Below are positions 22,542 through 44,422 of a stretch of 64,000 bases of DNA, piece after piece. The notes under the pieces were generated by a model that was not told where the DNA came from, searched no databases, and was given only the letters and a program-made list of their open reading frames with translations. Position 1 is the stretch's first letter. Every line of letters begins with the position of its first letter. Position numbers and translations under genes: made by a program. Source of the DNA: Streptomyces albogriseolus (GTDB lineage: Bacteria; Actinomycetota; Actinomycetes; Streptomycetales; Streptomycetaceae). Location: positions 304,079 through 368,078 of the forward strand of contig BMVA01000005.1 in assembly GCA_014650475.1 (NCBI GenBank), given 5' to 3'.

Positions 22542-22566
22542 GGCTGTCCCGGGCTTCCGGGGGTAC
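22542..22566 (+). promoter_or_regulatory. Candidate sigma-B-type stress promoter
   Basis: GGCT (22542-22545), 15 bases, GGGTAC (22561-22566) fits the S. coelicolor sigma-B pattern GNNT-N14-16-GGGTAY. It lies 45 bp upstream of the small basic gene at 22611. The -35 overlaps an inverted repeat CCGGGAC/GTCCCGG (22533-22552). Confidence 0.4.
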
Positions 22567-22760: not shown

Positions 22761-22829
22761 GCCGACCCAAGGCCCTGACGTCCTCCGCGCACCCGTGCGG
22801 GATGCAGGCCGATGACCCGAAAGGACTTC

Positions 22830-23249
22830 ATGAACGAATCGTCGGTCCGCACCGTGGGCTGGGCCCGCTCCCTGCCGATGGGCCAGGGGGTGAAGGCGGC
22901 CCGTGACTGGGCACAGGAGCACCTCGCCTCCCTGGGGTGGGACGAGAGCGCGCCCGAGACGGTCCACTCCGTGCTGCTCACGGTGTCGGAGCTGGTCACC
23001 AACGCGCATGTGCACGCCGGTACCGACGCGCAGCTGGTGATGTCGTGGGACACCCGCTGCCTGCACATCTCCGTGCACGACGGGTCCGCCGCCCTGCCCA
23101 CGCCGCGCGAGCCGAGCGAGGAGCGGGTCGGGGGGCGCGGCATGCTCCTGGTCGACGTCCTCGCCGACACCTGGGAGGCCCGGCCCTGCCCGCACGGCAA
23201 GACGGTCACCGCCTGCTTCCACGCGCCGGAGGCCGCCACCGCGGTGTGA
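22830..23249 (+). CDS. RsbW-like anti-sigma/ATP-binding (HATPase) protein
   Basis: 139 aa from ATG 22830 (AAAGGA just upstream). A GHKL ATPase fold: N box in SVLLTVSELVTNAHVHAG (Glu and Asn for magnesium-ATP), G1 box ISVHDGSAALP (Asp-x-Gly) and G2 in VGGRGMLLVDVLADTW. Such small Streptomyces proteins act as serine kinases and sigma-factor sequesterers in partner switches. No cognate sigma factor or STAS antagonist is adjacent. Confidence 0.85.
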   Translation: MNESSVRTVGWARSLPMGQGVKAARDWAQEHLASLGWDESAPETVHSVLLTVSELVTNAHVHAGTDAQLVMSWDTRCLHISVHDGSAALPTPREPSEERVGGRGMLLVDVLADTWEARPCPHGKTVTACFHAPEAATAV

Positions 23250-23338: not shown

Positions 23339-24046
23339 GTGACCGCCGTCCTGCCCCCGTACCCCGCCACGCCCGCCACGCCCGCCCTGCCGGCCCCGCG
23401 CCGGCTGACCCGCACCGAGGACGGTGAACGGCTGCACGCCCTGCTGTGGACCGCGGGCCCCGGGCGCCGGACGATCAGCAGCGCGGTGCTGGGCGGCGGC
23501 ATCGGCCCGCGGGCGTGGATCCTCAACGCGCAGGTGGCGCACGGTTACCGGCGCACCGACCCCAAGCGGCACCTCGCCTCCCTCGCCGCGGACGCCGGCC
23601 TGCACGGTCCGGGCGTGGGTCTGATGACGGCGGCCGACGTGTCGGCGTACGCGCACGGGCGCGACGCGGGCGTGGAGGCGTTCGTCACAGCGGGCGTGGA
23701 CGTGCGCGGCTGGGCGGCGCGGCCCGGTGAGGGCGCGGAGGGCGCCCCGGGCCCGGGCACGATCAACGTCGTGGTGGCCGTTCCGGCCGCGCTGACCGAC
23801 GCGGCGCTGGTGAACGCGGTGGCGACGGCCACGGAGGCGAAGGTCCAGGCGCTGGTGGAAAGCGGCTACGACTGTTCCGGCACCCCGACCGACGCGGTCT
23901 GCGTCGTCGCCGACGCCCCGGCCCCGCACCGGGAGACGCACGCGTTCGCCGGGCCCCGGTCGCTGTGGGGGGCGCGGCTCGCGCGCGCCGTGCACCGGGC
24001 CGTGCGGGACGCCGTGAGACATGAAACACCTGCTCCGGGGTATTGA
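23339..24046 (+). CDS. cbiZ: Adenosylcobinamide amidohydrolase CbiZ
   Basis: 235 aa from GTG 23339, with AAGGAG upstream. CbiZ removes the aminopropanol side of adenosylcobinamide or pseudo-cobamides to give adenosylcobyric acid, allowing salvage into the B12 pathway. Family features: SSAVLGGGIGPRAW, GVGLMTAADVSAY, VEAFVTAGV, INVVVAVPAALTDAALVNAV, TEAKVQAL and SGTPTDAVCV. It stands just upstream of a PP2C phosphatase and a B12-binding protein, which hints at a local link to cobalamin supply. No cobalamin riboswitch was recognised upstream. Confidence 0.92.
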   Translation: MTAVLPPYPATPATPALPAPRRLTRTEDGERLHALLWTAGPGRRTISSAVLGGGIGPRAWILNAQVAHGYRRTDPKRHLASLAADAGLHGPGVGLMTAADVSAYAHGRDAGVEAFVTAGVDVRGWAARPGEGAEGAPGPGTINVVVAVPAALTDAALVNAVATATEAKVQALVESGYDCSGTPTDAVCVVADAPAPHRETHAFAGPRSLWGARLARAVHRAVRDAVRHETPAPGY

Positions 24047-24169: not shown

Positions 24170-25837
24170 GTGATCTCTTCCCCCGGTTCCAGCGCCGATC
24201 CGTGCGATGCGCGCGACGGATCCGTCCCCGCCTGGGACGACGCGCCCTGCCCCGTTCTGGTGCTGGACTCACGCGGCCGGATCGCCGGCCGCAACCGTGC
24301 CGCCCGCCGCCTCACCGTGTCCTCCCCCGGCTCCGACGTTCCTCCGTCGTGGCTGGCCGAGGCGCACCGGCGTCATGTCGCCGGAACGCCCGACCCGACG
24401 GCGGGCACGCCGGCCGGGACCTTCGGCAGCCGCTCCTACGAGGCCCAGCCCTCCCCCTCCCGGGACGGCCATGTGGCCTGGTGGCTGTTCGACCGCACCG
24501 ACCTCGCACAGGCTCATGAGACCGTGCGGGAGACCCGTGAACGGGCCGACGCCGCCTCCCGCCTCTTCAGCACCCTGCTGTCGTCCCTGAACGTGCCGCG
24601 CTGCGCGGAGGTCGCCGCCCGGATGGCGACCGACCACCTCGCCGAGGCCGCCGTGCTGATCACTCCGCCGACCGGGCACCGGTACGCCGTCACCCACGCC
24701 CTGCGCGGCCGGCGCGTGGTGCAGGAGACGCGGCAGATCGACCCGCTCACCGTTCCCGGGCTCGACGAGGCCCTGCGCGGCTTCCCGCCGGTGCCGGCCC
24801 GCTGGATCAACCCGGACGCCATCCCGGACTGGGTGATCCCCGAGGGCTTCTCCGGGCCGGTGGGTTCCGTGCTGGTCACGCCGCTGCCCGGGCACGGGGT
24901 GCCCGCGGGCGCGCTGGTCCTGCTGCGCTCGGACACCGAGAAGGGGTTCTCGCCGGAGGAGGAGGTGTTCGCCCGGCTGTTCGCCTCCCGCGCGGGCACC
25001 GCCCTGTCGGCGGCGCGCCTGTACAGCGAGCAGACGGCCATCACCGCCACCCTGATGCGGGAGCTGCTGCCGCCGCCGCTGAGCCGTGTGCACGGCGTCG
25101 ACTACGCGGGCCGCTACCGCACCGCCCTGGACCACGAGCGGGTCGGCGGCGACTTCTACGACGTCCACCCCGGCCCCGACGAGTCCGCCGAGACGTTCGT
25201 CGCGCTGGGCGACGTGGCCGGCAAGGGACTGGACGCGGCGGTGCTCACCGGCAAGATCCGCAACACGCTGCACGCGCTGCTGCCGCTCGCCTCCGACCAC
25301 CTCCGGGTGCTGCGCATGCTCAACGGCGCCCTGCTCACCTCCCACCACGCCCGGTTCGCCACCCTGGTGCTGGCCTCGGTGAAGCGCCAGGACGACGGTG
25401 CGGTACGGCTGCGGCTCACCAGCGCCGGGCATCTGCCGCCGCTGGTGGTGCGCGCGGACGGCCGGGTCGAGGAGATGCCCACGCAGGGCACCCTGGTGGG
25501 CGCGCTGCCCGAGGTGACCGCGCGCACCGTGGAAACGGTCCTCGCGCCGGGCGACACCTGCCTGCTCTACACCGACGGCATCACCGAGGCCCGCGGCGGC
25601 CCCCTGGGCGACGAGCTGTTCGGCGAGGAGCGGCTGCGGCAGGCCCTCGAGGGATGCGGCGGCATGCCGGGCGAGGCGCTGGTGGAACACGTACAGATGC
25701 TGGCCGCGCAGTGGCTGGAGCCGGGGAGCCGCCACGACGACATGGCCGTCGTGGCCATCACCGCTCCGCGGGGCGGCACCTCGGCGGGCGACCGCGCACC
25801 GGCCGGCGCCGGCGGACGAGCACGGAGGAAGGCATGA
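24170..25837 (+). CDS. PAS-GAF-PP2C sensor phosphatase coupled to a B12-binding protein
   Basis: 555 aa if the GTG at 24170 is used; no strong ribosome site is seen, so the start is uncertain. Residues ~15-120 look PAS-like (PCPVLVLDSRGRIAGRNRAA). A GAF domain runs ~135-300 (CAEVAARMATDHLAEAAVLI..., VGSVLVTPLPG). The PP2C_SIG domain occupies ~310-530, with VGGDFYD near 326, GDVAGKG near 346, TDGITEARG near 467 and HDDMAVV near 522. It should dephosphorylate a STAS-type antagonist. Its TGA overlaps the ATG of the B12-binding protein gene, so the two proteins are made together. Confidence 0.85.
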   Translation: MISSPGSSADPCDARDGSVPAWDDAPCPVLVLDSRGRIAGRNRAARRLTVSSPGSDVPPSWLAEAHRRHVAGTPDPTAGTPAGTFGSRSYEAQPSPSRDGHVAWWLFDRTDLAQAHETVRETRERADAASRLFSTLLSSLNVPRCAEVAARMATDHLAEAAVLITPPTGHRYAVTHALRGRRVVQETRQIDPLTVPGLDEALRGFPPVPARWINPDAIPDWVIPEGFSGPVGSVLVTPLPGHGVPAGALVLLRSDTEKGFSPEEEVFARLFASRAGTALSAARLYSEQTAITATLMRELLPPPLSRVHGVDYAGRYRTALDHERVGGDFYDVHPGPDESAETFVALGDVAGKGLDAAVLTGKIRNTLHALLPLASDHLRVLRMLNGALLTSHHARFATLVLASVKRQDDGAVRLRLTSAGHLPPLVVRADGRVEEMPTQGTLVGALPEVTARTVETVLAPGDTCLLYTDGITEARGGPLGDELFGEERLRQALEGCGGMPGEALVEHVQMLAAQWLEPGSRHDDMAVVAITAPRGGTSAGDRAPAGAGGRARRKA

Positions 25838-26910
25838 GCGGACCCCGGGCCTCGGCCGGCGAACTCGGCGAGGCGCTGTGGGAGGCGGTGATCGACGGCG
25901 ACGAGTACGACGCCGTCGACGTGGTCCGCGGCGCGCTGACGGACGGCTGGCAGGAGGAGGACCTGCTGCTGGACGTGGTCGCGGCAGTGCAGGCGCGGAT
26001 CGGCCTGGAGTGGGCCGCCGACCGCATCACCGTCGCCCAGGAGCACGCGGCGACGGCGATCAACGAGCGGGTGATCACCGCCCTGGTGCACCACCGCTCC
26101 GGTACGCGCCCCGCCGGCCACCGGGGCCGGGTCACGGTGAGCTGCGTCGACGGCGAATGGCACGCGTTCCCCGCGCGGCTGGTCGCCGAGACGCTGCGGC
26201 TGCGCGGCTGGCAGGTCGACTACCTCGGCGCCCAGACGCCGACCCCGCACCTGGTCGCGCACCAGCACCACACCAACTCCGACGCCGTGCTGCTCTCCGG
26301 TTCGATCCCCACGCACCTGCCGCGGGCGCACACCGCGATCACCGCCTGCCGCTCCGTGGGTGTGCCGGTGGTGGCGGGTGGCCGGGCGTTCGGCGTGGAC
26401 GGGCGGTACGCGCGCGCCCTGGGCGCCGACGCGTGGGCGCCGGACGCGCGGGGCGCCGCGGCCGTGCTGGAGGCCGGGCTCGCGAGACCGACGGGCGTCC
26501 GGCAGGCCGTCGACGACCTGCCGCATCTGGCCGACCAGGAGTACAGCATGGTCGTCCAGGCGCGCGGCCGGCTGGTCAAGGAGACGCTGGCGGAGCTGGA
26601 ACGGCGCTTCCCGCCGATGCGGGAGTACAGCGACGCGCAGCGCGAGCGCACGGCCGAGGACCTGGCGCATGTCGTCGACTTCCTGGCGACCGCCCTCTAC
26701 GTCGACGCCGTCGAGGTGTTCACCGACTTCCTGGGCTGGACGGCCGACGTGCTGTCCGCGCGCAACGTGCCGCCGCACTCCCTGGTGACCGGCCTGGACA
26801 TCCTCGCCGACCATCTGCGGGACTTCCCGCGCGCCCTCGCCATGGTCCGCGCCGGCGCCGCCCATCTGACGGGCAGGACCGACCCGGCGGTCACGGACAC
26901 GGTGGTCTGA
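25834..26910 (+). CDS. CarH-like B12-binding sensor protein without DNA-binding domain
   Basis: 358 aa, start overlapping the phosphatase stop (ATGA) with GGAGGAAGG upstream. Residues ~10-90 are a four-helix B12-binding cap that contains W60-x9-E70-H71, exactly the W-x9-EH signature of light-sensing CarH photoreceptors. Residues ~98-220 are a Rossmann-like B12 domain with E108-W109-H110, matching the ExH lower-ligand motif (His110 to bind cobalt), then LLSGS (154-158) and VVAGGRAF (179-186). Residues ~230-350 form a further helical domain, reminiscent of globin-like sensor domains. No MerR-type helix-turn-helix is present. Convergent with crtU. Confidence 0.88.
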   Translation: MSGPRASAGELGEALWEAVIDGDEYDAVDVVRGALTDGWQEEDLLLDVVAAVQARIGLEWAADRITVAQEHAATAINERVITALVHHRSGTRPAGHRGRVTVSCVDGEWHAFPARLVAETLRLRGWQVDYLGAQTPTPHLVAHQHHTNSDAVLLSGSIPTHLPRAHTAITACRSVGVPVVAGGRAFGVDGRYARALGADAWAPDARGAAAVLEAGLARPTGVRQAVDDLPHLADQEYSMVVQARGRLVKETLAELERRFPPMREYSDAQRERTAEDLAHVVDFLATALYVDAVEVFTDFLGWTADVLSARNVPPHSLVTGLDILADHLRDFPRALAMVRAGAAHLTGRTDPAVTDTVV

Positions 26911-26912
26911 CA

Positions 26913-26942
26913 GGGGGCGCTCCGGCTCGCTCCTGCGCCCCC
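26913..26942. terminator. Bidirectional terminator between the B12 protein gene and crtU
   Basis: GGGGGCGC (26913-26920) pairs with GCGCCCCC (26935-26942) across a 14-base loop, filling the 39-bp convergent gap. Confidence 0.6.
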
Positions 26943-26949
26943 CTTCACG

Positions 26950-28515
26950 TCACCCCCGGCGTCCCGCCGCCCCCGCCAGCCCGCGCAGCAGCGCGCTGCG
27001 GCCGCGGTCCGGGACGGTCCAGAGGGGCTGGCCCCGGATGCCCCAGCGTTCCAGCAGGGCGTTCGCGGCGAGGAAGCCGGTGGTCGCCGCGCGTTCCATC
27101 AGGGCGACCGGCAGGGACGTACGGACCAGGTCGCCCGCCACCATCAGGCCCGGGTCGGGCGTGCGGACCGTGGGCCGGTCCTGGTAGCCGCCCACCGGGA
27201 AGAGAGGGCAGTCGGTGCCCCACTCGTGGCGGGCGTCGACGATGCCCGCCTTCCGGGTCTCCGGGTGGACGTGGTGCAACTGGTCGAGCAGCCGCTTCTG
27301 TTCGACCTCCGGGGACGCCTCCGGGGGCAGGGCGTAGGCGTGCAGTTCGACGACGGAGCCGCCGGTGCGGGCGGCCCAGCGGGCGGCCTCGTCCTCGTAC
27401 CGTTCGAGGACGCTGACGTTGTCGAGGGTGCCGTAGCCGCTGGTGCCGAGGAAGCCGGGCCGGTCGGGGGCGACGGGGCGGTCCAGCCAGAGGCGGGAGA
27501 CCAGGAACGGCGGGGCGTTGCGCAGCCGCGCGATCCGCTCCCGCCAGGGTGGGTCGCCGAGCCGGACGGAGCGGTCGACGAGGGCGCGCAGTCCGACGGC
27601 GTCCAGGGCGAGCACCACGGTGTCGTGGCGGCGCTCGTCCCGGTCGGTGGCAATCTCGTACCCGCCGTCGTCCAGGGGTTCGACGTGCTCGACGGGGGTG
27701 GAGGTGCGCAGGTCCGCGCCGTGCCGCTCGAGCAGGGCGGCGAGCGGCTCCCACAGGGCCGTGGGGAAGGGCGCGGCCGGCACGTCGAAGAGCAGGCCCT
27801 CGGAGGAGCCGAGGAAGTAGATGTGGAACATCAGCGCCATCTCGGCCGCCGACAGCAGGCGCGGGTCGGCGAAGAAGCTGCGGGAGAACACCTCGAACGC
27901 CAGATGCCGGGCGCTCTCCGGGAAGCGGACCGCGTCGAGGAAGTCGTGCGCGCTGACCGTGTCGAGGCGTTCGTAGATCTCGGGCACGCGGACGTCGAGC
28001 AGCGGCAGGGCGGCCGCCGCGTTCATCCGGGGCAGGTCGCGCAGCGGGAAGGACGGGCTGAGCGCGGCGAAGCCGAGCGCGCTCCACGGCGGGGTGCGGG
28101 GCACGTGCCGGAAGCTGTCGTGCATGCCGTCGCGGTGCCGCAGCGGGTAGTCGGGCAGCGGGGTGAGGCGTTCCAGGGCGGGGTCGGTGCGCCGGAGCAG
28201 GCCGCGCAGGTTGTAGTACTGCCGGAAGAAGGCGTGGAAGCCGCGGCTCATCGTCGCGGGCGTGCCGTCGGCCAGGTCGACGGGCCAGCCTCCGACGCGT
28301 CCGCCGAGGTAGGGGCGGGCTTCGTAGAGGGTGACGTCGACGCCGCGTTCGGCGAGGGCGGTGGCGGCGGCCAGTCCGGCGATGCCGCCGCCGACGACGG
28401 CGGTGCTGGGCCTGCGGTCGCCGTCGACGCGGGGCGCGCCGGGCGGGGGCAGGACCACGCGGGCGCGGCGGTCGCGGCCGCGGCGGGCGGCGGCCGGGCG
28501 GGGCGGTCGGGTCAT
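26950..28515 (-). CDS. crtU: Isorenieratene synthase / beta-carotene desaturase-methyltransferase (CrtU)
   Basis: 521 aa. Converts the beta-ionone rings of beta-carotene to aromatic phi rings, giving isorenieratene. FAD-binding Rossmann motif VVGGGIAGLAAATALAERGVD near residue 40, GGRVGGWP, and a C-terminal second nucleotide segment DPGLMVAGDLVRTSLPVALMERAATTG. SRGFHAFFRQYYNLR is typical of CrtU rather than CrtI. An unusually basic, Pro/Arg-rich ~35-residue N-terminus precedes the FAD motif. The start overlaps the crtT stop (ATGA). Last gene of crtY-crtT-crtU. Confidence 0.9.
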   Translation of the reverse strand: MTRPPRPAAARRGRDRRARVVLPPPGAPRVDGDRRPSTAVVGGGIAGLAAATALAERGVDVTLYEARPYLGGRVGGWPVDLADGTPATMSRGFHAFFRQYYNLRGLLRRTDPALERLTPLPDYPLRHRDGMHDSFRHVPRTPPWSALGFAALSPSFPLRDLPRMNAAAALPLLDVRVPEIYERLDTVSAHDFLDAVRFPESARHLAFEVFSRSFFADPRLLSAAEMALMFHIYFLGSSEGLLFDVPAAPFPTALWEPLAALLERHGADLRTSTPVEHVEPLDDGGYEIATDRDERRHDTVVLALDAVGLRALVDRSVRLGDPPWRERIARLRNAPPFLVSRLWLDRPVAPDRPGFLGTSGYGTLDNVSVLERYEDEAARWAARTGGSVVELHAYALPPEASPEVEQKRLLDQLHHVHPETRKAGIVDARHEWGTDCPLFPVGGYQDRPTVRTPDPGLMVAGDLVRTSLPVALMERAATTGFLAANALLERWGIRGQPLWTVPDRGRSALLRGLAGAAGRRG

Positions 28516-29240
28516 CGCGCGGTCTCCGTCGTGGTGGGGCGGCGCCCGGTGAAGGTGTGGGTGATGCCGGTCTGCCAGCCCGGCAGCGGCAGGCGGCGCA
28601 CGGTGTCGAAGCCGTTGGTGCGCAGCCGGTCCGCGAACCGGTCGGCGGTGTCGAACTCGACGACGCTGCGCCACAGATGGCGGTACAGGCCGCCGTCCCC
28701 GAGCAGGGTCGCCACGGGCTGGACGACGCCCCGGCAGACCAGGGTCCACACGGCGCGGTCGGTGCGGCGGCCGCCGAGGGTGTACTCGTGCACGGCGAGG
28801 CGTCCGCCGGGGGCGAGCAGGCCGTGCACGGTGCGCAGCACGGCGTCGGGGTCGGTGACGTTGCGGAACAGGTAGGCGGCGAACACCGCGTCGAAGGGAC
28901 CGGCCACCCCGGCCTCGGCGAGCCGCTCGGCGGGTGCGTGGGTGAATGTGACGTTCGGCGGCCAGGTCTTGGCGGCGGCCCGCTCCAGCATGCCGGCGGA
29001 GGCGTCCACGGCGGTGATGTCGGCGCTGGGCAGCACCTCGGCGAGCGCGGCGGTGGAGGCGCCGGTGCCGCAGCCGAGGTCGAGCACGCGCAGCCCCTCG
29101 CCGCCGCGGGGCAGGCCGAGGCGGCGTGCGGAGCGGCGCAGATGGGCGTGGTATCCGGGGTTGGCGGCCACGAGCGTGTCGTAGCTGCGGGCGGCGTGGT
29201 CGAAGGCGGCGGCGAGGTGCTCGTCGCGCAGGAGGGTCAT
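28512..29240 (-). CDS. crtT: SAM-dependent methyltransferase of the carotenoid cluster (CrtT)
   Basis: 242 aa from ATG 29240 (GGAGA upstream). Class I methyltransferase: motif I VLDLGCGTGASTAALAE near residues 51-67, then ITAVDAS and DAVFAAYLFRN. It resembles UbiE/demethylmenaquinone-type enzymes. In Streptomyces crt clusters the equivalent gene sits between crtY and crtU; its exact carotenoid role is not settled, so a quinone substrate cannot be excluded. Overlaps crtU by 4 bp and lies 39 bp from crtY. Confidence 0.82.
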   Translation of the reverse strand: MTLLRDEHLAAAFDHAARSYDTLVAANPGYHAHLRRSARRLGLPRGGEGLRVLDLGCGTGASTAALAEVLPSADITAVDASAGMLERAAAKTWPPNVTFTHAPAERLAEAGVAGPFDAVFAAYLFRNVTDPDAVLRTVHGLLAPGGRLAVHEYTLGGRRTDRAVWTLVCRGVVQPVATLLGDGGLYRHLWRSVVEFDTADRFADRLRTNGFDTVRRLPLPGWQTGITHTFTGRRPTTTETAR

Positions 29241-29279: not shown

Positions 29280-30473
29280 TCAGGGACCTTCGTAGGGGCG
29301 GCGGGGCAGGCCGGGCAGTTCGAGGGCGGAGCGGAGCATCGGGCCGACCGGCGCGTGCAGGCCGACGGCGAGGTCCTCGTGCAGGCGGGTGTCGCCGTCG
29401 AGGAACCGCAGCAGCCGCCGCATGGGGACGCGGTCGAACAGACGGCAGAACAGGGCGGGTCCGTCGGCACGCCCGCCGGCCAGGGCGCGCAGCAGCACGG
29501 CGTCCATGGCCCGGGAGCGGGCCGAGTGGGCGGGCGGCGGCTCCGGGCGGCGCCCCTGGCGGAGGGCGTCGGCGACGGCGCGGGTCTGGCGCTGGAGGCC
29601 GGCGAAGGTGTAGCCGGTGGAGGGGCGGGTGGCGCCGCCCGCCGCGCCGATGCGGAACACGGACCGGCCGGTCCGGCGGGGCATCTCCGCGTCGGTCATC
29701 GGGATGACGCCCGTCTCGGTGGACAGCACCTCGAGGTCGCCCAGCCGGAGCACGTCGTCGGTGTAGTGGCGTACGGCGGCCTCGTAGGCGTCGGGGGTGA
29801 GGGGGCGGGGGGAGAACTCGGTGTACTCCACCAGGGCGTCGTGCCGGCCGAGGGGCAGGACGTAGCCGAAGGACAGGCCGTCGGCGGGCTGCGGGGTGCG
29901 GAAGTCCATCAGCTCGGCGGTGGCGGGGGCGAAGGCGGGCCGGGCGGTGCGCACGAACCAGCCGTGGAAGTGCTGGAGCAGCGTGGTGCGGGCCGCGGGC
30001 AGGCTGCCGGGCGGGCGGGAGTCGAACACCCAGCGGGCGCGTACGACGCGGGCGTTCCCGTCGCCGTCGCGCAGCCGCACCAGCGCTCCCCCGGGCACGT
30101 CCTCCACGGCGTCGACGGTGCCCTCGACGCGCCGCACCCCGTCGTGGCCTGCCAGGTCGCGGGCGACAAGGTACTCGAAGTCGTCGGAGCGGATCATCTT
30201 GTAGCGCAGCGGCGCGATGTCCCCGTGGATGGGGCGGCCGGCCCGGTCGCGGACCCGCAGCCGCCGCCAGGACGCGGTGACGGCGGCGTCGAAGCGGCCG
30301 GGGCCCGCCTCCCAGAAGCACCAGGTGCGGCGCGGTGGCCGCAGCGGTCCGGGGGGCGCCTCCACCAGGGCGACGGACGGCACCCGGCGCCCGCTGCCGG
30401 GACCGGCCAGCCGGTGGGCGAGGGACAGTCCGGCCGCCCCGGCCCCGACGATCGCGACGTCCGCCTCCAGCAC
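29280..30473 (-). CDS. crtY: Lycopene beta-cyclase, CrtY type
   Basis: 397 aa from GTG 30473, with GAGGAGGG 10 bases upstream. Cyclises the ends of lycopene to beta-carotene. FAD motif VAIVGAGAAGLSLAHRLA at the N-terminus; cyclase signatures RTWCFWE, YKMIRSDDFEYLV, FDSRPP and FGYVLPLGRHDALVEYTEFSP; the segment RIGAAGGATRPSTGYTFAGLQRQ is typical of the flavin-dependent CrtY/CrtL family. First gene of the crtY-crtT-crtU operon, divergent from crtI across a region with two inverted repeats. Confidence 0.92.
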   Translation of the reverse strand: MLEADVAIVGAGAAGLSLAHRLAGPGSGRRVPSVALVEAPPGPLRPPRRTWCFWEAGPGRFDAAVTASWRRLRVRDRAGRPIHGDIAPLRYKMIRSDDFEYLVARDLAGHDGVRRVEGTVDAVEDVPGGALVRLRDGDGNARVVRARWVFDSRPPGSLPAARTTLLQHFHGWFVRTARPAFAPATAELMDFRTPQPADGLSFGYVLPLGRHDALVEYTEFSPRPLTPDAYEAAVRHYTDDVLRLGDLEVLSTETGVIPMTDAEMPRRTGRSVFRIGAAGGATRPSTGYTFAGLQRQTRAVADALRQGRRPEPPPAHSARSRAMDAVLLRALAGGRADGPALFCRLFDRVPMRRLLRFLDGDTRLHEDLAVGLHAPVGPMLRSALELPGLPRRPYEGP

Positions 30474-30499
30474 GCCGGCACCACCCTCCTCGGTACGAC

Positions 30500-30519
30500 G
30501 CCGTGCGGATGCGCACGGC
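30500..30519. promoter_or_regulatory. Inverted repeat upstream of crtY
   Basis: GCCGTGCG (30500-30507) and CGCACGGC (30512-30519) with a 4-base centre, 27-46 bp upstream of the crtY start. Operator or leader hairpin. Confidence 0.4.
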
Positions 30520-30590
30520 GCTGTGTTTTCGTCCGTGTGCCCGGTCGGATCCGGGTCACTCTGACGTGAGACGACGGGCGCGACCGGGAA

Positions 30591-30633
30591 GGCATGCGCC
30601 GGTCGTCCGGCGTACCGGAGCGATGCGCATGCC
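30591..30633. promoter_or_regulatory. Long-spaced inverted repeat in the crtY-crtI control region
   Basis: GGCATGCGC (30591-30599) and GCGCATGCC (30625-30633), perfect 9-bp arms 25 bases apart, midway between crtY and the crtI leader ORF. The arrangement would suit a dimeric or tetrameric regulator acting on both operons. No MerR (LitR) or ECF sigma (LitS) gene is nearby. Confidence 0.4.
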
Positions 30634-30652
30634 GACGAGAGGAAGACACCGG

Positions 30653-30838
30653 ATGCTCCCGATTGGGGCCAAGAGACACCGCGCGACGATGCGGTCGCGC
30701 GCGCCGCGCCCGGCCCGTCCGCCGGGACCCACCGTCCGGGTGCGGTCCGTCCGCGTGACGGCGGGGACGGCGAACGGCGGTACGGCGGGGCGCCGTGTGC
30801 CATGCGGGCGTACGGCCGGAGCGGGGTCCGGGCGGTGA
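30653..30838 (+). CDS. Candidate 61-aa leader ORF translationally coupled to crtI
   Basis: ATG 30653 has a strong ribosome site (GAGAGGAAG, 7 bases away). The reading frame has ~85% G/C at third positions and ends with TGA at 30836-30838, overlapping the crtI GTG at 30835 (GTGA). The product is very basic (about 15 Arg) and Pro/Gly-rich with no recognisable domain and no DDxxD motif, so it is not a crtE remnant that I can recognise. It may be a regulatory leader peptide, or the scar of a lost first gene. Confidence 0.42.
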   Translation: MLPIGAKRHRATMRSRAPRPARPPGPTVRVRSVRVTAGTANGGTAGRRVPCGRTAGAGSGR

Positions 30839-32391
30839 CCCGGACCGTTCCGGGGCGCACGGACCATGTCGTCGTCGTGGGGGCCGGGCTCGCCGGTCTG
30901 TCGGCGGCGCTGCACCTGCTGGGCGCGGGCCGGCGCGTCACCGTGGTCGAGCGCGACGAGCTGCCGGGCGGGCGCGCCGGACGCATGGAGATCGACGGGT
31001 ACCGGATCGACACCGGGCCCACCGTGCTGACCATGCCCGACCTGGCGGACGAGCCGTTCGCCGCGGTCGGGGACAGCCTGCGCGAGCGGGTGGAGCTGGT
31101 GCCGCTGCACCCCGCCTACCGGGCGCGGTTCGCCGACGGCAGCAGCCTCGACGTGCACACCGGGGCCGAGGCGATGGCCGCCGAGGTGGAGCGGTTCGCC
31201 GGGGCCCGGGAGGCGGCGGGCTACCTGCGGATGCGTGACTGGCTGGAACGGCTGTACCGGGCGCAGATGCGCCGGTTCATCGACGCCAACTTCGACTCGC
31301 CGCTCGGTCTGCTCCATCCGGACCTGGCGCGGCTGGCGGCGCTCGGCGGCTTCGGCCGGCTGGACGCGCGCATCGGCGGCTTCCTGCACGACGAGCGGCT
31401 GCGCCGGGTGTTCTCCTTCCAGGCGCTGTACGCGGGCGTCCCGCCGGCGCGGGCGCTGGCCGCGTACGCGGTGATCGCGTACATGGACACGGTCGCCGGG
31501 GTGTACTTCCCGCGCGGCGGGATGCACGCGCTGCCGCGGGCGATGGCGGACGCCGCCGCCGACGCGGGCGCCGACCTGCGGTTCGGGCGGGAGGTGACCC
31601 GGCTGGAGCGTTCCGGCGGCCGGGTCACGGCGGTGGTGGCGGGCGACGAGCGGATTCCCTGCGACGCGGTCGTCCTCACCCCCGACCTGCCGGTCGCCTA
31701 CCGGATGCTCGGCGGGGCGCCCCGGCGCCCGGTGCGGCTGAAGCACTCGCCGTCCGCGGTGGTGCTGCACCTGGGCACCGACCGGACCTGGCCCGAACTG
31801 GCGCACCACACCCTCTCCTTCGGCGCGGCGTGGCGCGGCACGTTCGACGAGCTCACCCGTGCCGGGCGGCTGATGAGCGACCCGTCGCTGCTGATCACCC
31901 GGCCCACCGCCACCGACCCGTCGCTCGCGCCCCCGGGACGCCATCTGCACTACGTGCTCGCGCCCTGCCCGAACACCGACATCGGGCCGGGCGCGGCCGA
32001 GTGGGCGGACCTGGCGCCGCGCTACCGGGACTCGGTGCTGCGGACTCTGGAGGAGCGCGGCCTGACCGGGCTGGCCTCCGCGATCGAGACGGAGTGCGTG
32101 GTCACGCCCGCCGACTGGGCCGCGCAGGGGCACGCGGCCGGTACGCCGTTCGCCACCGCCCACACCTTCGCCCAGACGGGCCCCTTCCGGCCCCGCAATC
32201 TGGTGCGCTCCGCCGAGAACGCGGTGCTGGCCGGCTGCGGCACCACGCCCGGCGTCGGCGTGCCGACCGTGCTGCTGTCCGGGAAGCTGGCAGCGCGGCG
32301 CATCACCGGCGCGCGCGGCCCCTCCGGAGGCGCGTCGCTCTCGTCCTCCGCCTCGTCTTCCGCCCAGGAGGCCCTGCATGACCGAGCGTGA
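30835..32391 (+). CDS. crtI: Phytoene desaturase CrtI
   Basis: 518 aa from GTG 30835 ([16 protein letters not shown]); ATG 30802 is an alternative without a good ribosome site. Converts phytoene to lycopene by FAD-dependent desaturation. N-terminal dinucleotide motif [20 protein letters not shown], then [23 protein letters not shown], and the C-terminal desaturase signature region [33 protein letters not shown]. The Ser-rich tail after ~500 is variable. Overlaps crtB by 14 bp and appears coupled to the small upstream ORF. Confidence 0.93.
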
Positions 32392-33394
32392 ACTGGACGC
32401 GGCGGGCGTCACCGATCCCGCGCTCCGCGAGGCGTACCGCCACTGCCGCCGGCTCAACGCCCGGCACGGCCGGACGTACTTCCTCGCCACCCGGCTGCTG
32501 CCCGTGGAGCGGCGGCCGGCCGTGCACGCCCTGTACGGCTTCGCCCGCTGGGCGGACGACATCGTCGACGCGCTCGGCACGGGCCCGGACACCGCCCGCC
32601 GGGACGCCGAACTCGCGGCCCTGGAGAGGGAGCTGGAGAAGGGGCTGCGGGACGGGGAGAGCGCCGAGCCGGTGGTGCGGGCCCTCGCCGACACGGCGCG
32701 GCGCTACCGCATCGACCACGCCCACTTCGCCGACTTCATGACCGCCATGCGGTCCGACCTGGTGGTCACCGACTACGCCGACTACGCGGCCCTGCGCCGG
32801 TACATGCACGGGTCGGCGGCCGTGATCGGGCTGCAGATGCTGCCCGTCCTCGGCACGGTCACCGACCGGGAGACGGCCGCCCCGCACGCGGCGGCCCTCG
32901 GCGTCGCCTTCCAGCTGACCAACTTCCTGCGTGACGTGGGCGAGGACCTGGACCGCGGGCGGGTGTACCTGCCCGCCGACCTGCTCGCCGCGCACGGCGT
33001 CGACCGGGAACGGCTGCGCTGGAGCCGGGACACCGGCCGCCGCGACCCGCGCATCACCTCGGCGCTGCGCGCCTTCGAACGGCTGACGCGGGGCGTGTAC
33101 CGGCAGGCGGCGCCGGGCCTCGCGATGCTCGAACCGGTGTCCCGCCCCTGCATCCGCACCGCGTTCGTCCTGTACGGCGGGATCCTGGACGCGGTGGCCG
33201 AGGACGGGTACGCGGTGCTGCACCGGCGGGCGGTGGTACCGCGCAGGCGGCGCGCCGTGGTCGCCGCGGACGGGCTGGTCCGGGTGGCCTCGGCCCGGCT
33301 GCGCGCCGGCTCGGCCGCCGCCCGGCGACCGGACGGCGTTCCGCCTACGGGTGCGGAGCCGGTGGAGCCGCGGATGGTCGAGGAGGTCGCGTGA
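32378..33394 (+). CDS. crtB: Phytoene synthase CrtB
   Basis: 338 aa. Condenses two geranylgeranyl diphosphates to phytoene. The two Asp-rich motifs that bind the diphosphates through magnesium are present: WADDIVD near residue 62 and [22 protein letters not shown] near 183-204. The start is inside the end of crtI with GGAGG upstream. A ~60-residue Arg/Ala-rich C-terminus follows the catalytic core. Its substrate GGPP must come from an enzyme encoded elsewhere, because no crtE is present in this window. Confidence 0.94.
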
Positions 33395-34419
33395 TGGCGG
33401 GTGACGGACGCGGGCGCCGGCGGCTGCCGCTCTCCCTGCGCCGCGACGCGGTGGCGTGGGAACGGCAGCGCCCCACCTGGCGGGACGCCAGGCCCGCCCT
33501 GATCGCGGGCGCGCTGAAGCGGGCGCAGGCACGCCCGTCGGGCAACTGGTACGTCGTGGGCGCCTCCCGCGACGTCGGCGGCGACCGCCCGCTGGGCCGG
33601 ACGGTCGCGGGACAGGAAGTGGTGGTCTGGCGCGATACGGGCGGCCGCGTGGTCGCGGGGCCGGGCGTCTGCCCGCACCTGGGCGCGCCGCTGCGGGACA
33701 GCCCGGTGCGCTGCGGCACCCTCGTCTGCCACTGGCACGGACTGTCCCTGGACGGCGGGCCGTTCGCCGGCTGGGAGCCGTTCCCCGCGTACGACGACGG
33801 GGTGCTGGTGTGGGTGCGGCTGGACGCCGTGGGCGGCGAGGAACCGCTCGACGCGCCGGTGGTGCCGCGCCGCCCGGTCCCGGCGCGCGCCCTGTCGGCG
33901 GTGTACGCGGGGGTCGGCGTCTGCGAGCCGGAGGACGTCGTGGCGAACCGGCTCGACCCCTGGCACGGGGCCTGGTTCCACCCGTACTCGTTCGTCGACC
34001 TCACGGTGGCGGACGCGCCGGACGGCTCCGACGGTCCGGCGGCCGCGGACGAGGACGCGTTCGCGGTGGACGTGTCCTTCAAGGTGGCGGGCCGTCTGGT
34101 GGTGCCGGTGCGGGCGGTGTTCACGGCTCCCGAGCCGCGGACGGTCGTCATGCACATCACCGAGGGCGAGGGGGTCGGCTCCGTGGTCGAGACCCACGCG
34201 ACCCCCCTGGGCCCGGACGCGTCGGGCCGGCCGCGCACGGCGGTGATCGAGGCGGTGGTCGCGGCGTCGGACCGCCGCGGCTTCGCCCTCGCCCGGGCCG
34301 CGGCGCCTCTGCTCCGCCCCCTGGTCCGGGCCGCCTCCGGCCGCCTCTGGCGCGACGACCTGGCCTACGCGGAACGCCGCTGGGCGCTCCGTTCGACGGG
34401 CCGGTTCCCGGGGGCGTAG
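33391..34419 (+). CDS. Rieske [2Fe-2S] protein (DUF5914-like) of the carotenoid cluster
   Basis: 342 aa, start overlapping the crtB stop (ATGA). The Rieske cluster ligands are clear: CPHLG near residue 91 and CHWHG near 110 (Cys-x-His and Cys-x2-His). The first ~50 residues are basic; the C-terminal half (from [24 protein letters not shown]) resembles a ring-hydroxylase-like helix-grip domain. An oxygenase acting on carotenoid end groups is possible. Last gene of crtI-crtB-Rieske. Confidence 0.82.
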
Positions 34420-35907: not shown

Positions 35908-37551
35908 TCATGCGGGCCGCCCGCCCCGGTCGGGCTGCCGGTGTCCGGTGCGGTCGCGGTGGGCCAGCAGCCGCTGGGCGGCGGCCAGGGCGGGCGCGAA
36001 GGACGGGCGCAGCGCGGCCCGCGCGGCGTTGGCGCCGGGCGCGCCGTGCACGCCGCCGCCCGGGTGGGCGCCGGCGGACGCCAGGTACAGGCCCTTGACG
36101 GGGGTCTCGGGCCGTCCGGTGCCGGGGGCGGGCCGGAAGAACAGCTGCTGGTGCATGGCGGTGGTGCCGCCGTTGATGGCGCCGCCGTGCAGGTTGCGGT
36201 CGAGGGACTGCAGCGTGGGCGGGGCGAGGATCCGCCGGGCCCGGACGCGGTCGCGGAAGCCGGGCGCGAAGCGCTCCACGTGGGCTTCGACGCGGTCGGC
36301 CATGCGTTCCTGCTCGTCCTTGTCCCAGGAGCCGGTGAGCCCGTCGTCGCCCGCGTCCCCGGCGACCCGGTGCGGGACGTGGGTGTAGGCCCAGGCGGAC
36401 TCGGTGCCCTGCGGGGAGCGGGTCGGGTCGGAGGTGGTCATCTGCCCGAACAGGGAGAACGGACGGTCGGGCACCTGTCCCATGGCGAGCTGGGCGGCGA
36501 AGCGGGTGAGTTCGTCGAGCCCGTCGGCGAGATGCACGGTCCCGGCGCCGGCGGCCTGCTCGCACCGCCACGGCACGGGGCCGTCCAGCGCCCAGTCGAC
36601 CTTGAAGGTCGCGAAGTCCCACTGGAAGCGCTCCAGGTCGGACAGCAGTTGCCGGGGCAGGTCCTCGGGGGCGACGAGCTCCCCGTAGAGGGCCGGCACG
36701 GACACGTCGGCGAGGACGGCGCGCCGGGCGGGGACGGTCTCCCCGTCGGCGAGACGTACGGCGACCGCCCGCCCGTCGCGGACGACGACACGCTCGACGT
36801 GCCGCCCGCACCGCACCACTCCCCCGCGTGACTCCAGGCGCCGCACGAGAGCGGCGGTGAGCGCGCCCGCGCCGCCGACCGGCACGGGGAAGCCGTAGGT
36901 CTGTCCGAGCATGGACATCAGCCAGCCGAAGCCGCCGCTGCCGGCGGCCTCGGGCGCGAGATCGGCGTGCAGGGCATTGCCCGCGAGCAGCAGCCCGCCG
37001 CCCTCGCCGCGGAACTCCTCCTCCGCCATGCGCCGCACCGGCAGCACGAGGGTCCGCGCCATGCGCAGCCCGCCGGTGCCGCGCAGCCGTACGGCGAGCC
37101 GCAGCCCGGAGCGGACCGGCGGGAACGGCGTGAACAGGGCGTCCAGCAGGTCGGGGCGCAGCCTCTCCCACAGCCCGTGCAGCCGGCGCCAGGCGTCGCC
37201 GTCCCCGGGTGCGAAGGCGTCGAGGGAGTCCGCGGTGACGCCGACGTCGCGGTCCAGGACCGCGCAGCGGCCGTCGCTCAGCGGGTGGGCGACGACGTGC
37301 GGGGCGTGGCTCCAGCGCAGCCCGTGGTCCTCCAGGGCGAGCCCGGACACGACCGGGGACGCGGCGGCGAGCGGGTAGAAGGAGCTGCACAGGTCGCTGG
37401 CGAAGTCGGGGTGGACGCCGTGGTCGTGACGCACGGCGCCGCCGGGTTCGGGCTGTTCCTCCAGGACCTGCACGCTCCAGCCGGCGTCGGCGAGCAGATT
37501 CGCCGCGACCAGGCCGTTGGGCCCGGCCCCGATGACGACGGCGTCAGCCAC
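35908..37551 (-). CDS. CrtI/CrtO-like FAD-dependent oxidoreductase
   Basis: 547 aa from GTG 37551. N-terminal FAD motif VVIGAGPNGLVAANLLADAGWSV and GGAVRHD as in phytoene-desaturase-like and carotene-ketolase-like enzymes. The C-terminus (GLYLASAGAHPGGGVHGAPGANAARAAL) is the usual flavin signature of this branch. It is not a second classical CrtI: the PNGLVAA form is typical of a broad actinobacterial oxidoreductase family. It overlaps the SRPBCC gene by 8 bp. Action on a polyene or lipid is an inference from the neighbouring crt genes. Confidence 0.83.
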   Translation of the reverse strand: MADAVVIGAGPNGLVAANLLADAGWSVQVLEEQPEPGGAVRHDHGVHPDFASDLCSSFYPLAAASPVVSGLALEDHGLRWSHAPHVVAHPLSDGRCAVLDRDVGVTADSLDAFAPGDGDAWRRLHGLWERLRPDLLDALFTPFPPVRSGLRLAVRLRGTGGLRMARTLVLPVRRMAEEEFRGEGGGLLLAGNALHADLAPEAAGSGGFGWLMSMLGQTYGFPVPVGGAGALTAALVRRLESRGGVVRCGRHVERVVVRDGRAVAVRLADGETVPARRAVLADVSVPALYGELVAPEDLPRQLLSDLERFQWDFATFKVDWALDGPVPWRCEQAAGAGTVHLADGLDELTRFAAQLAMGQVPDRPFSLFGQMTTSDPTRSPQGTESAWAYTHVPHRVAGDAGDDGLTGSWDKDEQERMADRVEAHVERFAPGFRDRVRARRILAPPTLQSLDRNLHGGAINGGTTAMHQQLFFRPAPGTGRPETPVKGLYLASAGAHPGGGVHGAPGANAARAALRPSFAPALAAAQRLLAHRDRTGHRQPDRGGRPA

Positions 37552-41716: not shown

Positions 41717-41745
41717 ATCGGGTGAGACGACCGGGATGACCCGAT
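41717..41745. promoter_or_regulatory. Inverted repeat ATCGGGT-N15-ACCCGAT
   Basis: Perfect 7-bp arms between the AMIN-like gene (31 bp upstream of its start) and the PP2C gene at 41846. Possible shared operator. Confidence 0.3.
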
Positions 41746-41845
41746 GGTTGCGGTCCGTTCGGCCGGTCGCCGTACCGGCGCGCATGGCACATGCTGGTGG
41801 GGAGCGGACGAACGTCCCGTTCCGTGCGCACCGGGAGGGCGTCAC

Positions 41846-44422
41846 ATGGGTGGTGCAGCCGCCGCACCGCGCGGGGAGCGGCCGGCGGGCCTGCCCGTAC
41901 CCGACGCGGAGGAGGGCCGGACCGGGCGCGGCGAGGCCCGTATCGAGGACGCGCTCGCGGACGCCGTGGTGAAGGCCGTGCGGGACACCGGAGGATACGG
42001 CGGGGCGGTGTACCTGCGGTCGCGGGACCGCAGGTCGCTGGTGCTCTGCGTGATGTCCGGCGTGCCCCGCTCGCTGCTGAAGCCGTGGTGGCGGATCCCG
42101 GTGAGCGGCGCGCTGCCGATGTGCGAGACGTTCCGCAGCGGCGAGACCCAGTACCTGCCCGACGACCGGGCGACGATGCTGCGCTTCCCGCAGTTCACGG
42201 CCGCCCTGCCGTACTCGTTCGCGCACGCCTACCAGCCGGTGCGGGTCGGCGGCGAGACCGTGGGCGTCCTCGCGGTGCTGTGCTCCTCCTCCCGGGAGCC
42301 GGCCGGTGAGGAGGAGGTGCGCGAAGGGCTGCGCCGGGCCGGGCGGGACATGGAGGAGCGCCTCGCCGAGTACGCCCGAGGTCTGCCGGGCCGCACCGAC
42401 GCGGACGCGGTGGCGTACGGCATCGAGTACGACGACCAGCCGGTCAGCGTGCGGCTGCCGACGCCGCCCGCGCAGGCGGTCGCGATCGGGATGATCGAGT
42501 GGGACCTGGCCGGCGACCGCTGGTCGGGGGACGACGACGCGCTGGAGCTGCTGGGGGTGTCCCGCGAGGAGTTCGGCGGCACCATGGCCGCGGTCGAGGA
42601 GCGGGTGTCACCGGACGACCTGTACGAGCTGCGGGCGGCCCGGCGGGACGCGGAGGACACCGGGCAGATCCGGGGCCGCCACTTCCGGGTGCTGGAGGAG
42701 CCGCGGGACGAGGGCGAGAGGGTCCACTACCGGCCGGTGGAGCTGTGGGGGCACGTGGTGCGCGCGAGGTCCTCCGACCGGCTGCTGGTGGGCGCGCTGA
42801 TCGACGTGGCGGGCGGCGTCACCGCGGCGGAGGCCGCCGAGCGGCTGCCCGACGGGCTGTTCTCCCTGGACCAGGACGGCAGAGTCATCTACGCCAACCG
42901 CCGCTGCCAGGACCTGCTCGGCTCCGACCTGGAGCGGCTGCTCGGCCATTACCCCTGGGAGGTGCTGACCTGGCTGCGCGACCCCGCGTACGAGGACCGC
43001 TACCGGGCGGCGATGCTGACGCAGCAGCCGGTGTCGTACCTGGTGCACACGCCGGACGGCGTGTGGCTGGGCTTCGTGCTCTACCCGGGTGTGCACGGGC
43101 TGACCGGCCGGGTCTTCCGCACCGCCGCCCCCGCGGGCGCGGAGCCGGGGCGGGCCCTGCCGCCGTCCTCGCAGGCGGCGGCCCCGCCGGCCGAGCTGGT
43201 CACCACCGCCCGCGCGGGGGCGCTGTACCACGTGGTGCAGATGGCCAGCGTGCTCACCGAGTCCGTCACCGTGCGCGACGTGTGCCGGGCCGTGTCCGAG
43301 CAGCTGCTGCCGGCGTTCGGGGCGCAGGAGGTCGCCCTCTACACCGTGCGCGACGGGCGGATGTACCTGCTGTGGGAGGACGGGTATCCGCAGCACTTCC
43401 TCGACCCGTTCGAGGGGGTGCCGCTGGAGGCGGACCTGCCCGGGGTGCACGCGCTGACCACGCGCCTGCCGCTGTTCTTCGAGTCGCCGGAGGAACTGGC
43501 CGGCGCGTACCCGAGGCTGGCGCTGGACCCCATGACGTCCTGGGCGTTCCTGCCGCTGATCGCCTCCGGCCACCCGGTCGGCTCCTGCATCCTCGGCTGG
43601 AACACCCCGCACCGCTTCACCGCGGAGGAGCGCAGCGCGCTGACCGCGCTGGCCGGGCTGACGGCGCAGGCGATGGAGCGGGCGCGGCTCTACGACGCCG
43701 AGTCGGCCGTGGCGCGCGGGCTGCAGGAAGGGCTGCTGCCGCACCGGCTGCCCACCGTCGACCGGTTGCGCGTCACCGCCCGCTATCTGCCCGGCACCAA
43801 GGGCATGGACATCGGCGGCGACTGGTACGACGTCATCCGGACGGGGCGCGGGGTGGCGCTGGTCATCGGGGACGTGGAGGGGCACAGCGTGGGCGCCGCG
43901 GCCGTCATGGGACAGCTGCGCAGCGCGGTGCACTCCTTCGCCGCGAGCGGGCGGCCGCCGCAGGAGGTCGTCACGCACACCAACCAGCTGCTCGCCGAGC
44001 TGGAGACGGACATCTTCGCCACCTGCTGCTACATCGAGCTGGACCCGGCGACCGGACACGCCCGGGCCGTGCGCGCGGGCCACCCGCCGCCGCTGCTGCG
44101 GCACCCCGACGGGAGCGCGGAGGTCCTGGAGCTGCCGGGCGGCGTGCTGCTGGGGGTGCAGCCGGACGCCGACTACCCGGTCGCCGAGTTCACCCTGGAG
44201 CCCGGCAGCGTCCTGGCGCTCTACACGGACGGGCTGGTCGAGGTGCCCGGCAGCGACATCGCGACCGGCATCGAGACGGTCCTCTCGTGTCTGGCCGTCA
44301 GCCGGACCGACTCCATGGAGGAGCTGGCCGACCGGATTCTCGGCGCGGCCCGCCGCGCGGAGGACCGGCCGGACGACGTGGCGCTGCTGCTCACGGCGTA
44401 CGACCCGGCCGGGGCCGGCTGA
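41846..44422 (+). CDS. Multidomain GAF-PAS-GAF-PP2C sensor phosphatase
   Basis: 858 aa from ATG 41846 with GGGAGG upstream. An N-terminal GAF-like domain (~30-165), a low-similarity PAS-like segment (~210-320), a second PAS (~330-420: LPDGLFSLDQDGRVIYANRRCQDLLG), a GAF domain (~465-620) and a PP2C_SIG domain (~640-855) with GGDWYD near 657, GDVEGH near 675 and TDGLVEVPG near 795. It presumably integrates several signals to control dephosphorylation of STAS-type antagonists. Monocistronic, with a hairpin just after the stop. Confidence 0.88.
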   Translation: MGGAAAAPRGERPAGLPVPDAEEGRTGRGEARIEDALADAVVKAVRDTGGYGGAVYLRSRDRRSLVLCVMSGVPRSLLKPWWRIPVSGALPMCETFRSGETQYLPDDRATMLRFPQFTAALPYSFAHAYQPVRVGGETVGVLAVLCSSSREPAGEEEVREGLRRAGRDMEERLAEYARGLPGRTDADAVAYGIEYDDQPVSVRLPTPPAQAVAIGMIEWDLAGDRWSGDDDALELLGVSREEFGGTMAAVEERVSPDDLYELRAARRDAEDTGQIRGRHFRVLEEPRDEGERVHYRPVELWGHVVRARSSDRLLVGALIDVAGGVTAAEAAERLPDGLFSLDQDGRVIYANRRCQDLLGSDLERLLGHYPWEVLTWLRDPAYEDRYRAAMLTQQPVSYLVHTPDGVWLGFVLYPGVHGLTGRVFRTAAPAGAEPGRALPPSSQAAAPPAELVTTARAGALYHVVQMASVLTESVTVRDVCRAVSEQLLPAFGAQEVALYTVRDGRMYLLWEDGYPQHFLDPFEGVPLEADLPGVHALTTRLPLFFESPEELAGAYPRLALDPMTSWAFLPLIASGHPVGSCILGWNTPHRFTAEERSALTALAGLTAQAMERARLYDAESAVARGLQEGLLPHRLPTVDRLRVTARYLPGTKGMDIGGDWYDVIRTGRGVALVIGDVEGHSVGAAAVMGQLRSAVHSFAASGRPPQEVVTHTNQLLAELETDIFATCCYIELDPATGHARAVRAGHPPPLLRHPDGSAEVLELPGGVLLGVQPDADYPVAEFTLEPGSVLALYTDGLVEVPGSDIATGIETVLSCLAVSRTDSMEELADRILGAARRAEDRPDDVALLLTAYDPAGAG

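Follow-up and report, generated by a model that had tools for sequence, protein, structure and literature searches.

An RsbU-type PP2C phosphatase gene overlapping a photocobilin gene beside a Streptomyces carotenoid cluster: a candidate light-gated phosphatase module

The 64,000-nucleotide stretch of the Streptomyces albogriseolus genome analysed here (contig BMVA01000005.1, positions 304,079 to 368,078; hereafter the window, to whose numbering coordinates refer) carries a PP2C phosphatase gene followed on the forward strand by a gene for a B12-binding protein. The first gene (24170..25837) encodes an RsbU/SpoIIE-type phosphatase of about 555 amino acids (Pfam SpoIIE, E 1e-41), for which the GTG at 24170 represents a choice of start, our own gene caller favouring 24260. 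The second (25834..26910), present in single copy in this 8.07-Mb genome, encodes a protein of 358 residues in which a B12-binding helical cap and a Rossmann domain are followed by a C-terminal bilin-binding globin, as judged by phmmer and Pfam. The two share the tetranucleotide ATGA (25834..25837), in which the TGA stop of the phosphatase gene overlaps the ATG at 25834; this 4-base-pair (bp) overlap, which had been reported in a first-pass annotation of the sequence and is reproduced here, would be expected to couple their translation.

The first-pass annotation regarded the B12 protein as a CarH-type module without a DNA-binding domain. Its residue numbering (W60, E70, H71, E108 and H110) was borne out, as was the lack of a helix-turn-helix: Pfam detects none in the 358 residues, the B12 cap begins at residue 13, and the B12-binding_2 (13-84, 49 bits) and B12-binding (99-205, 55 bits) matches both exceed their cut-offs. 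What had been missed is the segment from about residue 225 to 345, which by sequence corresponds to the bilin-binding globin domain of photocobilins, a family of receptors using B12 and biliverdin that was published in 2024 (PMC10979010). Among solved structures, phmmer ranks the SasPcob entries 8j2w (E 9.5e-80) and 8j2x highest, with an alignment that extends from residue 13 to 338, and gives a further match to AbPcob 8j2y (E 2.3e-41, residues 17-324). CarH structures rank after the photocobilins, at E 4e-12 and weaker, and the NCBIfam CarH model scores 58 bits where its cut-off is 400, CarH and LitR resembling the B12 half only. By domain order and contact residues, the B12 protein is thus a photocobilin, and the lack of a helix-turn-helix together with the additional globin domain rules out a CarH/LitR identity. 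A methyltransferase corrinoid protein was also considered and rejected, the NCBIfam pyl_corrinoid model giving 28.7 bits (cut-off 215) as against E 9.5e-80 to photocobilins.

Alignment with SasPcob places the residues of its adenosyl pocket, Trp61, Glu71 and His72, at W60, E70 and H71 in the W60-x9-E70-H71 motif (26011..26046), its lower cobalt ligand His108 at H110 in E108-x-H110 (26155..26163), its His137, contributed by the partner monomer, at H139, and its biliverdin contacts Asp270 and Trp296 at D276 (26659-26661) and W302 (26737-26739) of the globin-like domain (26506..26853). In an alignment of 81 sequences, comprising the window protein and its best relatives rather than a random sample, W60, E70, H71, H110, H139, D276 and W302 are each retained in 80 or 81; the counts are 81, 81 and 80 for W60, E70 and H71, 81 each for E108 and H110, 81 for D276 and 80 for W302. 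We infer from these correspondences that the window photocobilin binds adenosylcobalamin (AdoCbl) by way of H110 and W60/E70/H71, and it probably also binds biliverdin through D276 and W302. Cysteines occur only at positions 104 and 172, and their absence from the globin part fits non-covalent attachment of biliverdin, for which a heme oxygenase gene of the same genome (E 1.9e-66) could serve as the source. In CarH, the upper histidine ligand sits right after the pocket tryptophan; the residue following W60 is alanine. The light state described for SasPcob is ligated by water or hydroxide and is not bis-His (PMC10979010).

Within the phosphatase, the SpoIIE match delimits a PP2C domain at approximately 25190-25762. 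The PAS-GAF-PP2C architecture previously assigned to this protein is only partly recovered: the PP2C domain stands, the GAF domain preceding it is marginal (20.4 bits against a cut-off of 22.4 in the window, with E<=0.01 in 23 of 26 orthologues), and PAS is scarcely supported (PAS_4 in 2/26 and PAS in 1/26). The aspartates of the GGDFYD, GDVAGKG, YTDGITEA and HDDMA motifs, which we take to be metal-binding, are conserved throughout an alignment of 78 orthologues (77-78 sequences, with a gap in one row). Elsewhere in the window there are two further SpoIIE-type PP2C genes (41744-44422 and 2701-3531), and SpoIIE matches number 48 genome-wide, the final two weak.

Relatives of the photocobilin were assembled from two samples, their loci being designated by L-numbers. 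A contig scan yielded 470 relatives, the best 80 of which were kept as loci; an even draw of 295 Streptomyces genomes contained photocobilin at E<=1e-40 in 112, giving 124 match rows, of which 114 were retrieved (the row of the window itself and nine partial rows were set aside). These make up 195 sources (window + 80 + 114) and 194 scored photocobilin genes, the gene caller, from which gene starts were taken throughout, having lost the photocobilin in L040 and L203, and L053 having two; family labels from hidden Markov models missed the photocobilin or STAS gene in L113 and L174, where it was seen by eye. When "immediately upstream" is defined as the same strand at less than 150 bp, a PP2C gene occupies this position in 190 of the 194. 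The four others are L018 and L039, then L044, which has just a fragment of PP2C, and L142, where a search at the level of open reading frames (ORFs) did show PP2C. With regard to the two uncalled loci, PP2C adjoins in L040, and ORF search gave none in L203. ORF-level search recovered PP2C in 107 of the 114 loci, the called-gene count being higher and the methods disagreeing on L140, L142, L182, L183, L197 and L201. Some genomes fall in both samples; there are 177 unique photocobilin sequences, 173 of them with PP2C, and in 157 of these 173 pairs the PP2C stop overlaps an in-frame ATG or GTG by 4 bp. The pairing is far above chance, and synteny, which the first-pass annotation had proposed as a check, reveals a non-random neighbourhood.

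In the rest of the phylum, photocobilin is rarer, being found at E<=1e-25 in 14 of 296 genomes, five of them Streptomyces including the window's own. Matches to PP2C, photocobilin and STAS occur in all of L226-L232, which comprise four already-sampled Streptomyces and three loci from other genera of the class, and PP2C is present too at L240, where one of these genomes has another photocobilin. Three observations on locus structure can be added. A divergent Streptomyces photocobilin clade (L189-L202, about 40% identity) mostly has PP2C and lacks a detectable STAS gene; L053:3024-9487 contains two full PP2C-photocobilin-STAS cassettes in tandem, adjoining crtI-B-V; and L018:8031-9056, the closest to the window clade by tree distance, has a photocobilin without an adjoining PP2C or STAS gene.

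In most relatives, the photocobilin gene is followed by one encoding a STAS protein of about 130 residues (Pfam STAS_2/STAS), often again by a 4-bp overlap: most STAS genes have a gap of -4 in the gene tables, and a start-type codon lies at the overlap position within the photocobilin end in 138 of 173 genes, as counted from the codon and not from the opening of a STAS protein. A search of up to 700 bp after each of the 177 unique photocobilin genes found STAS with Ser/Thr at the phosphorylation site in 127, STAS lacking it in 12 and no STAS in 38 (139 with STAS in total). This distribution suggests that the ancestral unit was probably PP2C-photocobilin-STAS, the core of a partner switch equipped with a photoreceptor input. 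The expectation that the signal would pass to a STAS/anti-sigma partner switch fits the gene order of most relatives and not that of the window and its kin.

The window and 18 relatives form one monophyletic clade (FastTree node support 99) in which none of the 19 members has a serine-bearing STAS: nine lack STAS, and ten have the serine replaced by Pro, Arg or Ala, the copy in L009 being a relic. Outside the clade, serine is present in 127 of 158, STAS is missing in 29 and STAS without serine occurs in 2. By these comparisons, the clade has lost the STAS gene or its phospho-serine. In the window, the position of the STAS gene is taken by a gap of 39 bp (26911..26949) containing no detectable STAS or relic. 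The ratios of nonsynonymous to synonymous substitution rates (dN/dS) of the remaining clade STAS copies are 0.39, 0.59, 0.65, 0.71 and 1.29 (five pairs), overlapping the 0.36-0.87 of control pairs with serine-bearing STAS (n=7), so that relaxed selection is suggestive and not proven. Since no dedicated STAS is encoded at the window locus, the sequence implies that the phosphatase must serve a target in trans; the genome contains 20 STAS_2 matches, none in the window and at least 17 of them over the cut-off, counting the STAS_2 model only with 150 of 180 candidates scored.

Both remaining genes of the unit stay under purifying selection in this clade. Compared with its close STAS-less relatives L002, L003 and L005, the window gives dN/dS values of 0.28-0.29 for PP2C, 0.22-0.35 for photocobilin and 0.22-0.23 for the neighbouring carotenoid gene crtU; across all tested clade pairs, PP2C and photocobilin range from 0.20 to 0.45 and crtU from 0.16 to 0.44. 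In L008 and L054, PP2C is split across two reading frames.

The flanks of the window module include genes for a cobamide enzyme, an HATPase protein and carotenoid synthesis. Directly before PP2C on the forward strand lies CbiZ, an adenosylcobinamide amidohydrolase of cobamide remodelling (23339..24046; Pfam CbiZ, E 3.4e-51), and two genes upstream of PP2C is an RsbW-like HATPase_c_2 protein (22812..23249, forward; Pfam E 5e-11), which most members of the window clade also have upstream. Convergent with the photocobilin on the reverse strand is a flavin adenine dinucleotide (FAD)-dependent desaturase of CrtU type (26950..28515; Pfam Amino_oxidase, E 6e-44, with HpnE as the best NCBIfam match, below cut-off), then a CrtT-type methyltransferase (28512..29240; Pfam methyltransferase families) and the CrtY lycopene cyclase (29280..30473; Pfam Lycopene_cycl, E 3e-107). 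On the forward strand follow the CrtI phytoene desaturase (30802..32391; NCBIfam crtI_fam, 590 bits, cut-off 238), the CrtB phytoene synthase (32378..33394; Pfam SQS_PSY, E 1.5e-71) and a Rieske/DUF5914 protein labelled crtV (33391..34419; Pfam). The names CrtU, CrtT and crtV are ones that we presume from gene order and general knowledge of such clusters. A CrtO/CrtI-like FAD oxidoreductase adjoins the cluster at 35908-37551 (NCBIfam CrtO, 231 bits, cut-off 1000). No gene lies between crtY and crtI in the window (30474-30801), and the same is true of L002-L006, L008 and L022; L007, L009-L011 and L054 carry a gene there that is putatively crtE by order. Rfam at gathering scores gave no cobalamin riboswitch in the window. 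The motif GNNT-N13..17-GGGTAY, which we take to be a sigma-B-like promoter, has six matches in the 64 kb, a count run without a chance control, of which none immediately precedes PP2C or falls between crtY and crtI, and one is on the plus strand at 22542, about 245 bp before the HATPase gene.

Carotenoid genes recur near photocobilins beyond the window. CrtU is present in 147 of the 295 Streptomyces genomes and co-occurs with photocobilin in 81, where 55.8 would be expected (P 1e-9, uncorrected for kinship). In 11 of these 81 it lies within 15 kb of the photocobilin, as against 0.33 expected for random placement, and P is 2e-5 even if just five of the 11 are independent. The arrangements vary: crtU is convergent to photocobilin in the window clade and L181, as is crtV in L160 and L161; crtI-B-V lies upstream of PP2C in L034, L036, L043 and L053; and crt genes lie downstream of an intact STAS gene in L047 and L120. 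The state of having two or more crt genes in the examined flank changes 11 times on the tree, with seven contrasts on supported branches. In the two genomes whose crtU is next in similarity after that of the window's close kin, the crt locus lacks the module and crtU adjoins relics of it, an HATPase gene directly beside it at L206:8239-8637 (79% identity) and a STAS fragment at L207:8039-8173 (61-74% over 35-42 residues), which we read as signs of module loss.

The occurrence of MerR-type B12 regulators was also surveyed. Among 20 CrtU flanks hand-chosen from the 147 CrtU genomes, from those without photocobilin beside CrtU, a MerR-B12 protein stands beside crt in two. A MerR protein with a B12-binding half (L090:5930-6901) lies in the same genome as the carotenoid cluster, on another contig, and by eye has W-x10-EH and DxH. 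A LitR survey of the 295 Streptomyces genomes with the CarH model gave no matches at 1e-22, a threshold that was too strict.

We propose, with a probability of about 0.62, that the pair constitutes a light-gated RsbU-type phosphatase module with the photocobilin as its input; that the B12 photosensor would act on a PP2C phosphatase rather than on DNA is strongly supported by synteny. In the literature, light-dependent effects on a diguanylate cyclase in trans are described for a photocobilin domain and for standalone SasPcob (PMC10979010), and a partner protein switches RsbU-type phosphatases via linker helices and dimerisation, a mode of control that is proposed to be shared with GGDEF cyclases (PMC12143880). 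On these grounds the photocobilin may, by analogy, be an RsbT-like partner of the window PP2C. The dark photocobilin would be a head-to-tail dimer, in which green light absorbed by AdoCbl, or red light by way of biliverdin, would break the Co-C bond and release the adenosyl group, altering shape and oligomeric state. Made together with PP2C from the overlapping genes, it would act on the phosphatase by contact, most likely via the N-terminal or linker helices by which PP2C dimerisation and metal binding are controlled, in the way that RsbT acts on RsbU. The phosphatase would dephosphorylate STAS anti-anti-sigma factors, and these, by binding HATPase kinases, would release a sigma factor. The target would be the STAS protein of the third gene in most relatives, and in the window clade some other phosphoprotein or one of the STAS proteins encoded at other places in the genome; the likeliest output there would be the adjacent carotenoid genes.

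Several observations weigh against this proposal. Eight loci of other classes (L233-L239 and L241) have no PP2C within about 1.5 kb by our own model, no PP2C-photocobilin fusion was found among the ORFs of L091-L204 and L226-L241, and a cognate STAS is absent at the window locus, where crtU lies 39 bp from the photocobilin stop. The direction of the effect published for SasPcob varied with biliverdin, and the AbDPcob dimer stayed undissociated in light (PMC10979010), so that neither the sign nor a change of oligomer can be assumed. Of the 81 genomes that have both genes, 70 showed no CrtU inside the 15-kb limit, some cases perhaps being hidden by contig ends, and carotenoid output is thus not general. 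Finally, the tree shows no independent or significant correlation between the loss of STAS and proximity to carotenoid genes, the seven contrasts dividing into 1.2 the same way, 0.2 the other way and 5.6 with no difference. We regard as doubtful the more specific scenario in which, in one Streptomyces lineage, a two-chromophore photoreceptor shed its STAS protein, was re-aimed with a functional phosphatase at the adjoining carotenoid genes and recruited CbiZ for its cofactor, so that carotenogenesis would be switched by light post-translationally instead of through LitR/LitS.

An unlikely alternative is that the photocobilin senses AdoCbl supply instead of light, the apo and AdoCbl-bound forms setting PP2C activity while CbiZ tunes the cobamide pool. 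The position of CbiZ directly before PP2C would suit such a role, as would the report that a fused cyclase is less active with AdoCbl bound, even without any other signal, than in the apo form (PMC10979010). However, conservation across the family extends to the entire adenosyl photopocket and to the bilin contacts, carotenoid genes recur as neighbours, and the CbiZ genes that group with the window copy are confined to the window clade (16 of 16), the photocobilin-PP2C pair being far wider. We consider it improbable that the two genes are coupled in translation only, with the photocobilin acting on the STAS protein, a kinase or another partner and making no contact with PP2C: the lack of fusions and the frequent overlap of the STAS gene with the photocobilin gene would both be compatible with this, yet PP2C and photocobilin persist together under purifying selection where STAS is gone, and the divergent clade of about 40% identity mostly retains the pair without detectable STAS. 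Equally improbable is that an earlier PP2C-photocobilin-STAS switch is in decay in the window clade and the module is what is left of it, as the loss or alteration of STAS in 19 of 19 members, the clade STAS dN/dS values, the relics beside crtU and the split PP2C genes might imply, given that the dN/dS of PP2C and photocobilin resembles that of crtU, the catalytic and chromophore residues of the window are intact, and STAS dN/dS elsewhere overlaps the clade range.

Should the light-gated phosphatase module exist as proposed, it would constitute a bacterial route from green and red light to a sigma-factor phosphatase, and a two-colour phosphatase switch for optogenetics. The near-invariant PP2C partner and the usual STAS third gene point to a likely output for standalone photocobilins, which could be put to the test in many actinomycete genomes; the STAS-less window clade gives a hint as to which partner is indispensable, and the window locus offers a possible path, open to experiment, by which light could reach stress control. 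The view of the first-pass annotation that the architecture had not been described requires qualification. Schneider's 2022 work on photoglobin reportedly included gene neighbourhoods with signalling domains. The sensor family is known, and one sentence, on the basis of STRING predictions, gives STAS, SpoIIE and PP2C proteins as partners for SasPcob (PMC10979010). Among the matches listed in our literature search, no title or abstract start concerned the PP2C-photocobilin-STAS operon as such, its carotenoid linkage or STAS loss; an earlier mention is possible.

Among known systems, the window protein most resembles the photocobilins SasPcob (8j2w/8j2x) and AbDPcob (8j2y), with which it shares the full domain order, W-x9-EH, ExH and the biliverdin contacts. 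It is standalone, as is SasPcob, a form of photocobilin whose function is described as less clear; unlike the published photocobilins, whose tested output is a diguanylate cyclase, the window copy lies in an overlapping operon with PP2C (PMC10979010). With the CarH/LitR repressors it has in common the B12 cap and Rossmann domain, the adenosyl-pocket motif, the lower histidine ligand and a carotenoid connection, and it differs from them in lacking a MerR helix-turn-helix, in its extra globin, in the alanine after W60 and in a target that would be a protein rather than DNA. The LitR-LitS system of Streptomyces likewise places a B12-based light input at a crt cluster (PMC12705666, PMC11472566), whereas in the window the CarH model picks up the photocobilin alone and no regulator of MerR type (an extracytoplasmic function sigma gene was not searched for), and control would be post-translational via the phosphatase. 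As in the RsbT-RsbU-RsbV-RsbW and RsbP switches (PMC12143880), an RsbU-type PP2C with an N-terminal sensor part is accompanied by a STAS gene in most relatives and, in the window, by an HATPase gene two genes upstream, a possible anti-sigma kinase; unlike those switches, the input is a B12/bilin photoreceptor, and the window clade has dispensed with a dedicated STAS partner.

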